Assembly (NCBI GenBank): GCA_030673895.1
Contig: JAUTCR010000058.1
Span: forward strand, 1 to 64,000
Direction: 5' to 3'
From: Verrucomicrobiota bacterium JB023
GTDB lineage: Bacteria > Verrucomicrobiota > Verrucomicrobiia > Verrucomicrobiales > Akkermansiaceae
Length of the DNA stretch: 64,000 nucleotides
Shown here one piece after another: positions 49,283 to 52,623 of the stretch. Within the stretch, counting starts at the first letter, position 1. Every line of letters starts with the position of its first letter. The position numbers were made by a program, and so were the translations under genes. Below the pieces are notes generated by a model. That model made no database searches. It saw only the letters and a list, made by a program, of their open reading frames with translations, and was not told the DNA's origin.

Positions 49283-50014
49283 TTAGGAATCGCGGCGTCC
49301 TCCTCCGCGATTGTCACCACCACGATTATCGCGGCGGCCACCGGGGCGTCGGTTGTCGCGACGATTACCACCCGGGTTCTGCTTGATCTTGTCCTCGCGC
49401 TTGTTCAACCAGCACTTGATACCGATGATCCCGTAAACAGTGCTCGCTTCTGCGAAACCATAGTCAATAGGGACACGAAGGGTCTGAAGAGGCACCTTAC
49501 CCTGGCGATACCATTCGGCACGGGCAATGTCTGCACCACCAAGACGACCGGCGCAGCGGATCCGGATACCATCAGCACCGAAGTCCATCGCTGTCTGGAC
49601 AGCACGCTTCATCGCCCGGCGGAAGCTAATCCGGCGCTCAAGCTGAACGGCGACGTTCTCGCAAATCAGCTGGGCATCCAGCTCAGGCTGGCGAATCTCG
49701 ACGATATCAATCTTCACTTGAGCTCCGTTGCAGATCTTCGTGATGTCGCGGGTCATGAGTTCGATCTCAGAGCCACGCTTACCAATGACAAGACCAGGGC
49801 GGGAGGTGTGAAGGGTGACTCGCACGCTATTCCAAGCGCGCTCGATGACCACCTTGGACAGCGCCGCAAATTGCAGTCGGTTGCTCAGGTATCTCCGGAC
49901 AGCAAGGTCCTCGTGAAGCTTCTTGGTGTAGTCCTCTCCGCTGGCATACCACTTGGAGCGCCAGTCGCGGTTGAAGGCGAGTCGGAATCCTACTGGGTTG
50001 ACTTTCTGTCCCAT
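49283..50014 (-). CDS. rpsC: 30S ribosomal protein S3 with RG/RR-rich C-terminal tail
   Basis: MGQKVNPVGFRLAFNRDWRSKWYA; SRPGLVIGKRGSEIELM KH motif; tail NPGGNRRDNRRPGGRRDNRGGDNRGGGRRDS. Confidence 0.97.
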   Translation of the reverse strand: MGQKVNPVGFRLAFNRDWRSKWYASGEDYTKKLHEDLAVRRYLSNRLQFAALSKVVIERAWNSVRVTLHTSRPGLVIGKRGSEIELMTRDITKICNGAQVKIDIVEIRQPELDAQLICENVAVQLERRISFRRAMKRAVQTAMDFGADGIRIRCAGRLGGADIARAEWYRQGKVPLQTLRVPIDYGFAEASTVYGIIGIKCWLNKREDKIKQNPGGNRRDNRRPGGRRDNRGGDNRGGGRRDS

Positions 50015-50056: not shown

Positions 50057-50737
50057 TTAGCCGTTCCCTTTTTCATCAATAAGGGTCTTGGCTTGCTCGA
50101 GCCAGTTGTCTCGCTCGATGCGTCCTTTGAAGGAGAGAAGCATGTCGAAGGCAGCAATGTTCTCGGGGGTCCAATCAACAATCTGCTGATAAGTGTAGAC
50201 ACCGAAGCCATTAAGCTTTTCCTCAAGCGCAGGTCCAACGCCACTGATTTTCTTCAGGTCGTCGACTTCAGCAGGAGCCTCCGAGTAGACGGTGCCCAAC
50301 TGCGCTGGGTCAACTTCCGGTGTCTCGGTCTCAGAGACGGGAGCCGTCTTCTTAGGAGCTGCTTTTTTAGCTGCCTTGCGAGATTTTGGAGCCTTCTCCT
50401 CAACCTCAGCTTCAGAAAGTGTGATGTAGATGTGGCTGGTGCGCTTGCGAATTGCTGAAGCGGAACCGCGAGCGCGAGGCTTGAAGCGACGGAACATTGG
50501 TCCTTCACAAATGCTGGCTTCCTTTACCACGAGGGTGTCTCCGGGCAGATCGTGGTTGTTTTCAGCATTGGCCAGAGCGCTCTTCAATGTCTTGCCGATC
50601 AAGAAGGCCGCCTTCTTCGGGGTGTAATTCAGCGTGTCCAGAGCATCGGAAACCGGCATGCCTTGGATTGCGCGGGCAACGTCCCGGGCTTTCTTAGCCG
50701 AGACTCTCGCGTATTTGGTTATCGAACGGACTTCCAT
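50057..50737 (-). CDS. rplV: 50S ribosomal protein L22 with C-terminal helix-hairpin-helix-like domain
   Basis: YARVSAKKARDVARAIQGMPVSDALDTLNYTPKKAA L22 core; C-terminal DDLKKISGVGPALEEKLNGFGVYTYQQIVDWTPENIAAFDMLLSFKGRIERDNWLEQAKTL. Confidence 0.95.
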   Translation of the reverse strand: MEVRSITKYARVSAKKARDVARAIQGMPVSDALDTLNYTPKKAAFLIGKTLKSALANAENNHDLPGDTLVVKEASICEGPMFRRFKPRARGSASAIRKRTSHIYITLSEAEVEEKAPKSRKAAKKAAPKKTAPVSETETPEVDPAQLGTVYSEAPAEVDDLKKISGVGPALEEKLNGFGVYTYQQIVDWTPENIAAFDMLLSFKGRIERDNWLEQAKTLIDEKGNG

Positions 50738-50752
50738 GACTTTTTGACTTCG

Positions 50753-51463
50753 TTAATTGCGTTTGAATGAAACCCGGTCGCCTATCTGGACAGGGTTTTC
50801 TTGGTTTTCCAAATTGGTGATGAGTAGAGCGCTCACATCAGCGCGAGTCGATGCGACGAGCGCATCGGCCACTTTCATTTCATTTCGTAGGACTTCGAAA
50901 GGCATTCCAATCACAGCGGATTCCTTTTCACCCACATTGACAACGACGATCGAACCGCCGGCTTCGCTATTGACACTGACCACTCGGGCCATTTGAAGAT
51001 TCCCGGTGAGACGATCCTTGGCTGGCTTCTCGCGCAATCCGACAGCGATGTCGAGATCGCGGAGGCGGGCCTCCAGGTTCGCCCTGGCATCCGGGTCTGC
51101 CGCAATTGCGGTGGCGAGATAATTTTTTGCGTCAGAGGATAGAGCCAGCGCAGCGTCCTCGACCTCCTTCAGTCGGCGAGTGAGAACTTCGTAGTCCGCA
51201 ACTGCTGTGACCAGGCGGTCGCTCTGACCATCGAGAACAGATGCCCCCATGGCTTCGAGCCGAAGCTTGATCTCCTCGAGACGCTCATTTGCTTCGCTCT
51301 CCCGCTTGGTTGTCTCCACCAGGCTTTGTTTGAGAATCTCCACCTGGCTACGGAGCGAGGCGAGCTCGACAGACTCAGGTCCATGAGGATGTCCGCACAG
51401 CGTCCCACCGCCGACCCCGAAGATGAGGGCGGTCAGGAGCTGATAATGACGGACAGTCTTCAT
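50753..51463 (-). CDS. Unknown secreted coiled-coil protein inserted in the S10 operon
   Basis: 236 aa; N-terminal signal-like MKTVRHYQLLTALIFGVGGGTLCG, long coiled coil, C-terminal beta-rich RVVSVNSEAGGSIVVVNVGEKESAVIGMPFEVLR; 15-bp and 29-bp gaps to the flanking r-protein genes. Confidence 0.8.
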   Translation of the reverse strand: MKTVRHYQLLTALIFGVGGGTLCGHPHGPESVELASLRSQVEILKQSLVETTKRESEANERLEEIKLRLEAMGASVLDGQSDRLVTAVADYEVLTRRLKEVEDAALALSSDAKNYLATAIAADPDARANLEARLRDLDIAVGLREKPAKDRLTGNLQMARVVSVNSEAGGSIVVVNVGEKESAVIGMPFEVLRNEMKVADALVASTRADVSALLITNLENQENPVQIGDRVSFKRN

Positions 51464-51492: not shown

Positions 51493-51762
51493 TTACTTCT
51501 TACCGACACCGCCGTGTGCCTTGAAGTTCTTGCTCGGTGCAAATTCACCCAGCTTATGACCAACCATGTTTTCGGTGACGAAAACAGCGGTAAAGGTCTT
51601 GCCATTGTGAACTGCGAAGTTGAGGCCGACGAAATCGGGAGTGATCATCGAGCGACGGCTCCAGGTCTTGATCGGCTTTTTGTCGTTTTTCTCAATCGCG
51701 ACATCGATCTTGGCCAGAAGCTTCTGGTCGACGAAGGGTCCTTTTTTCAGTGAACGTGGCAT
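51493..51762 (-). CDS. rpsS: 30S ribosomal protein S19
   Basis: [46 protein letters not shown]. Confidence 0.97.
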
Positions 51763-51786: not shown

Positions 51787-52623
51787 TTACTTTTTCTTGC
51801 GGGACTGGACGATGAAGGTGCTGGTTGGCTTCTTCTTCTTGCGGGTCTTCTGCCCCTTGGTGTGTCCCCAAGGCGACTTGAGGTGCTGACGACCACCACC
51901 GGATTTCGACTTACCCTCACCACCACCATTCGGGTGATCGACTGGGTTCATACACATTCCACGGACGGTCGGACGGATGCCCTGCCAGCGGCTGCGTCCC
52001 GCTTTGCCGGAAACCTCGTTCATGTGGTCACGGTTACCGACTTGCCCAATCGTGCAGTAGCAGGTCTCGTGGAAGCGGCGGATTTCGCCTGAAGGCATGC
52101 GCACAAGCGCGTAGCCGCCTTCTCTGTTCGAAAGGATTGCCTGCTGGCCTGCAGCGCGGGCAACCTTACCACCACCACCTGGCTGAAGTTCAATATTGTG
52201 AACCGCTGTTCCAAGAGGAACGCTAGCGAGAGGCATTGCATTGCCTGGCTTGGGAGGAGCAGCAGAACCGGCTTCCACCTTCGCACCCACGGTCAATCCG
52301 ACTGGCGCGAGGATATAGGCCTTTTCGCCGTCCTCATATTGAAGGAGAGCAATCCGGCAGGTGCGGTTCGGATCATATTCGATAGAAAGAACCTCGGCGG
52401 CGACTTCACGCTTGTTGCGCTTGAAGTCGATGATGCGGTATTTGCGCTTGTGACCGCCACCTTTGTGGCGGCACGTGATGCGACCTTGATTGTTTCGACC
52501 ACCACTCTTCTTGAGGGGAGCGGTGAGGCTCTTCTCAGGCTTCGATGCGGTGACTTCAGCGAAATCCGGGTGCTCCTTGTAGCGATTGGCCGGGGTGAAG
52601 GGTTTGAATGTTTTGAGAGACAT
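51787..52623 (-). CDS. rplB: 50S ribosomal protein L2
   Basis: [80 protein letters not shown]. Confidence 0.98.

Follow-up and report, generated by a model that had tools for sequence, protein, structure and literature searches.

In the window, by which we mean the whole stretch of 64,000 nucleotides analysed here, an ATG-started open reading frame of 236 amino acids lies between rpsS and rplV, 29 bp from the former and 15 bp from the latter. We refer to it as gene X. Few gene orders in bacteria are as stable as rplB-rpsS-rplV-rpsC. An earlier note on this DNA had described a 236-aa gene at this junction, with the same gaps and oriented as the operon; the reading frame, its coordinates, length and gaps are all correct, the strand can now be given as minus for X, rpsS, rplV and the other S10 operon genes in the window, and the C-terminal sequence quoted at the time is present in the translation of X. 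The features are collected in Table 1.

Table 1. Features of the rpsS-X-rplV junction and its surroundings in the window.
Feature	Position	Strand	Basis
Gene X, predicted secreted coiled-coil protein, 236 aa	50753..51463	-	ORF; homologues at same junction
X, signal-peptide-like N-terminal region, residues 1-26	51386..51463	-	Sequence; hydrophobic N-termini of homologues
X, coiled-coil helix 1, residues 29-71	51251..51379	-	AlphaFold2 model
X, coiled-coil helix 2, residues 81-117	51113..51223	-	AlphaFold2 model
X, helix 3, residues 124-141	51041..51094	-	AlphaFold2 model
X, C-terminal beta domain, residues 157-236, FlgT_C/TsaP/MreC-barrel-like	50756..50995	-	Model, profile and conservation
rpsS (S19), upstream neighbour of X	51493..51762	-	ORF; served as query in relatives' loci
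rplV (L22), downstream neighbour of X, with C-terminal HHH-like extension	50057..50737	-	ORF and Pfam
rplB (L2), S10 operon	51787..52623	-	ORF; served as query in relatives' loci
rpsC (S3), S10 operon	49283..50014	-	ORF and Pfam

A scan of the rpsS-rplV stretch on the minus strand, confined to sigma-70-type sites, returned no promoter-like or terminator-like site, and hence no sign of a separate promoter or terminator, which according to the earlier note would isolate X from the operon. The short gaps on a single strand suggest that X is co-transcribed with the S10 ribosomal genes. The rplV gene of the window itself carries a C-terminal extension (50060-50281) that matches the helix-hairpin-helix family HHH_5 (E 5e-5); the extension is present in some relatives and missing from others.

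The N-terminus of X had been called signal-like, and this is borne out by its relatives: by a simple rule, not a trained predictor, a hydrophobic N-terminal stretch was recognized in 149 of 156 homologues, with an AxA-like motif after it in 143 and a lipobox in four. Given its place among ribosomal genes, X might instead remain in the cytoplasm or associate with the ribosome, its hydrophobic N-terminus being no export signal. We consider this very improbable: nearly all homologues have the stretch, mostly preceded by basic residues and followed by the AxA-like site, and related paralogues have N-terminal membrane anchors. No Pfam or NCBIfam match indicated homology of X to a ribosomal protein.

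The further layout of the protein, according to the earlier note a long coiled coil ahead of a small C-terminal domain rich in beta structure, is reproduced by an AlphaFold2 model (pLDDT 86), in which three helices build the coiled coil and are followed by the beta domain, modelled at residues 159-233. Modelled alone with 93 sequences, the C-terminal domain reached a pLDDT of 92.6 and a pTM of 0.82. It is also the best conserved region of X, with G178, G186, R193, R207, G228, and D229 near-invariant. No family in Pfam or NCBIfam fits the full protein, and searches of Pfam, NCBIfam and PDB with the whole protein returned mainly coiled-coil noise. Among open-licence PMC papers, we found no published account of X or of its insertion into the S10 operon.

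Comparing a profile of the C-terminal domain with PDB, we obtained TsaP as the best match (E 9e-7). The Pfam family FlgT_C (PF16538) matches 25 of 93 C-terminal domains (best 1.6e-6), the copy in the window being unmatched, and the MreC barrel of Pfam gives weak matches in seven of the 93. A Foldseek search of PDB with this domain, as proposed in the earlier note, placed FlgT on top and MreC close behind, at a weak E of about 0.01 and for a fold, the small barrel, that is common. In a viral library, an FlgT-C-like phage protein was among the high-ranking matches. The C-terminal domain of X is thus distantly related to the barrels of FlgT_C, TsaP, and MreC.

For relatives of the gene, a degenerate pattern derived from the window protein alone matched none, and the alignments A1 and A2 were too diverse; a closer alignment succeeded. 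Within the Verrucomicrobiales, we sampled 57 genomes at the own, genus, family, and order levels. X lies upstream of rplV in all 57, and the full order rpsS-X-rplV is present in 56. A protein search found a single copy in each of 55 genomes; G006 and G019, which gave no match in this search, carry X at the same junction, as seen by reading their rplV loci. At the DNA level, rplB-rpsS-X-rplV-rpsC was read in all order loci except L036, whose contig starts inside the region. An independent scan of 80 named GTDB loci, labelled mostly Akkermansiaceae, Verrucomicrobiaceae, Luteolibacter, Haloferula, and Prosthecobacter, revealed rpsS, X, and rplV in order at every one. The published 16S primer AM1 for the gut bacterium Akkermansia muciniphila has three matches in each of G082 and G153, two single-contig genomes of 2.7 Mb in genus g3, and on these grounds the genus was taken as Akkermansia; both genomes have X at the same rpsS-rplV junction (loci L059 and L065). 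X is probably also present in Verrucomicrobium spinosum, a member of the same order, for which a saturated transposon study with an essentiality table is available (Data S5; PMC12283558).

An artefact of a single assembly, the case in which the earlier note would have given up its claim, is rejected by the 57 order genomes and the 80 GTDB loci; X is found at the junction across order, class, and phylum. A chance reading frame was likewise rejected. Over 90 close Akkermansia-type pairs, the median dN/dS of X is 0.16 (range 0.03-0.68), and the gene is under purifying selection.

Conservation of the insertion across Verrucomicrobiota, a check put forward in the earlier note, extends beyond the order to further families of the class and to other classes. 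X-type members were detected by profile search in 151 of 189 class genomes, a figure that is not a count of S10 copies, because some matches are paralogues elsewhere. Long X occupies the junction in 31 of 31 read loci of further class genomes from more than 20 families (L116 ends before rplB). Seven further class loci contain a short X of 108-130 aa, composed of a signal-like N-terminus and the C-terminal domain. In class loci lacking X, rpsS and rplV are either tightly joined, 1 to 43 bp apart, or separated by 85-313 bp, and L129 has a gap of 552 bp whose reading frame is not clearly X. In genus g47, X is missing from two genomes of 0.9 Mb, reduced like those of endosymbionts (L137 and L139), and kept in G147 (L099; 2.5 Mb). 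Between rpsS and rplV, L137 and L139 retain 148-313 bp, including one stretch common to both genomes. No relics of X were detected in the gene-less rpsS-rplV gaps. Since several lineages lost X or kept its C-terminal domain only, some members of the phylum manage without the coiled coil or without the gene altogether.

In other classes of the phylum, the gene was seen in two sets of loci. The first has X, here 129-301 aa long, between rpsS and rplV. In the second, an X-like gene (profile E about 1e-7 or better) is located 1-124 bp before rplV and rpsS is missing upstream; some members of the Verrucomicrobiota are without X. The rpsS gene of the split operons is found elsewhere in the genome, about 660 kb off in G236 and 37 kb in G311, and wherever both parts are on one contig, tens to hundreds of kb separate rpsS from X-rplV. 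Thus, X travels with rplV and not with rpsS. The break in the S10 operon falls precisely between rpsS and X-rplV in L263-L268, L272, L275, L277-L280, L282, and L287 (with L251). Taken together, the order, class, phylum, and GTDB loci show X holding the same place between rpsS and rplV from lineage to lineage, as a resident of the S10 operon.

The spacing is likewise narrow. Over 128 loci, with start codons chosen mechanically, the median gap is 20 bp before X and 18 bp after it, and most gaps measure 10-30 bp. X is predicted to be exported, lies directly before rplV and, in split operons, is found on the rplV side; it could act as a secretion monitor, i.e., a secreted arrest protein like SecM or MifM, encoded upstream of rplV and controlling it through its own export status. 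Little room is left in the intergenic spaces around X, however; its C-terminal end is poorly conserved and has no arrest-like motif, and the C-terminal domain is a confidently predicted fold. We therefore attach hardly any probability to a monitoring function.

A separate observation concerns the sequence just before rplV in family f17. About 70 nt ahead of rplV, the loci L133, L134, L135, L136, L140, L142, L143, L144, L145, and L309 contain a conserved, RNA-like element composed of AAAGGGYAGGG, a variable hairpin, CTRTCGCC, a second hairpin, and GGAATC. Between sequences, the two halves of the GGYAG/CTRTC pairing vary together, T going with A and C with G. This was read directly from the sequences; in the automatic alignment, the 3' strand was misplaced. 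Folding energies are only modestly better than those of shuffles. In a pattern search of 132 genomes of the order to which f17 belongs, the element occurred once in each of eight genomes, all of f17, and the reversed-pattern control gave no match in the 132 genomes. Rfam returned no credible match to the element. It may represent a new ribosomal-protein leader, and we list it as a candidate rplV leader.

X was also compared with the ribosomal genes in divergence and codon usage. For 84 loci, the distances between X proteins track those between ribosomal proteins (Mantel r 0.62; none of 1000 permutations was as high) and are about 3.7 times as large. X scores 0.68 in codon adaptation to the ribosomal genes of the operon; these genes themselves score 0.70-0.81, and 30 other long ORFs have a median of 0.69. 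High expression of X by codon bias is unsupported by these values. X codon usage is average and below that of every ribosomal gene tested; abundance on the ribosomal scale is therefore doubtful, and the dosage of X need not follow the ribosomal proteins closely.

These figures bear on the question of whether the location has a function at all. X could be a functional envelope protein that came to lie in the S10 operon by an old accident and stays there because excision risks breaking an essential operon, so that its coupling to ribosome synthesis would be functionally meaningless. Its average codon usage and its larger distances speak for such a history, as do the variable length and coiled coil and the repeated losses of X without replacement. 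However, the position is kept throughout the phylum sample, and X remains with rplV when the operon breaks. Furthermore, the losses indicate that excision is tolerated, and therefore retention is not simply forced. We regard the accident as quite possible, although we lean against it.

That X is a conserved, S10-embedded and predicted exported protein we hold to be nearly certain as a description. The explanation that we favor overall, an exported S10-operon protein that is likely a periplasmic scaffold and whose supply follows ribosome production, comes close to an even chance without quite reaching it; on this explanation, X became part of the S10 operon, directly ahead of rplV, at an early point in Verrucomicrobiota evolution and has stayed there. 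The mechanism, a scaffold coupled to growth via the operon, is proposed tentatively, at distinctly less than even confidence. X would be part of the S10 mRNA; the protein would leave the cytoplasm through Sec, be cleaved, and oligomerise in the periplasm through its coiled coil. Its C-terminal barrel would dock on another envelope component, making X a general scaffold or anchor in the manner of FlgT rings, TsaP, and MreC. By virtue of the S10 position, its synthesis would rise and fall with ribosome production, i.e., with growth and envelope expansion. Because X keeps its place before rplV even in broken operons, the production of an envelope protein may here keep pace with that of ribosomes.

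It is unexpected to find at this site, across the phylum, a protein that is non-ribosomal and apparently exported, and to see it stay with rplV in broken operons. In A. muciniphila, and probably in V. spinosum, it points to a protein still uncharacterised; both species are amenable to study, and one can ask there whether operon structure couples the growth of the envelope to ribosome synthesis. Going further, X could be a phylum-defining envelope assembly factor, its synthesis hard-wired through the S10 operon to ribosome production, and one that most Verrucomicrobiota, A. muciniphila among them, require to grow normally. This we judge unlikely; if true, it would tie envelope growth to translation capacity by a direct genetic connection, which is not described in model bacteria.

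Among known systems, FlgT is a periplasmic ring protein. Its C-terminal domain (PF16538; Vibrio FlgT, PDB 3w1e and 8z5n) is a small barrel as in X. In Pfam and family scans, however, X is without the N-terminal and middle domains of FlgT and has a coiled coil instead, and it is encoded in the S10 operon rather than with flagellar genes.

TsaP, the type IV pilus secretin-associated protein (PDB 3jc8), has an X-like C-terminal domain by profile and is an exported protein, as X is predicted to be. Accordingly, X might anchor or stabilise an outer-membrane secretin of type II secretion or type IV pili. Apart from TsaP being the best PDB profile match, this would fit the presence of a secretin in 31 of 31 X-bearing genomes tested, and the three secretin-less genomes are also without X. 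Yet 22 of 25 X-less genomes tested have secretins as well and the three without belong to one family, and for this reason the association between secretins and X is weak. In addition, TsaP has a LysM domain, whereas Pfam scans found none in X, which carries the coiled coil. A role as secretin partner thus appears improbable.

MreC (PF04085) resembles X in layout, a coiled coil followed by a periplasmic barrel, and X might accordingly be an MreC-like component of the cell-elongation machinery, in line with the matches of its C-terminal domain to the MreC barrel in Pfam and Foldseek. The family matches are weak, with none above cut-off, and X differs from MreC by a cleavable-looking signal and a single barrel. 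Moreover, most genomes carry X as a gene of its own alongside true MreC: MreC was found in 53 of 56 genomes tested, and the three without it are Akkermansia (G005, G028, and G082), all X-bearing, such that X does not co-occur with the elongation machinery there. X as an MreC orthologue is rejected on these grounds, and an MreC-like role, already largely refuted, retains next to no credence.

The PVC signature protein CT421.2 is, like X, a conserved unknown protein; it is reported across the PVC phyla (Gupta 2012, PMC3444138). With 53-80 aa it is unlike X in size, and it was rejected as a different protein.

Further likenesses are found within the Verrucomicrobiota. The genome of the window and others encode further proteins with a membrane anchor, a coiled coil, and a C-terminal domain related to that of X, often in pairs. 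Tandem pairs outside the S10 operon are located in L237 (6200-7027 and 7070-7897), L238 (4576-5529 and 5486-6421), and L242 (6961-8929), the Akkermansia pair in L238 coming after a pnp-like gene. These paralogues share the layout and the related C-terminal domain with X, but are membrane-anchored and occur in varied contexts. From the common layout we conclude that X is the operon-bound, secreted branch of a wider verrucomicrobial superfamily.
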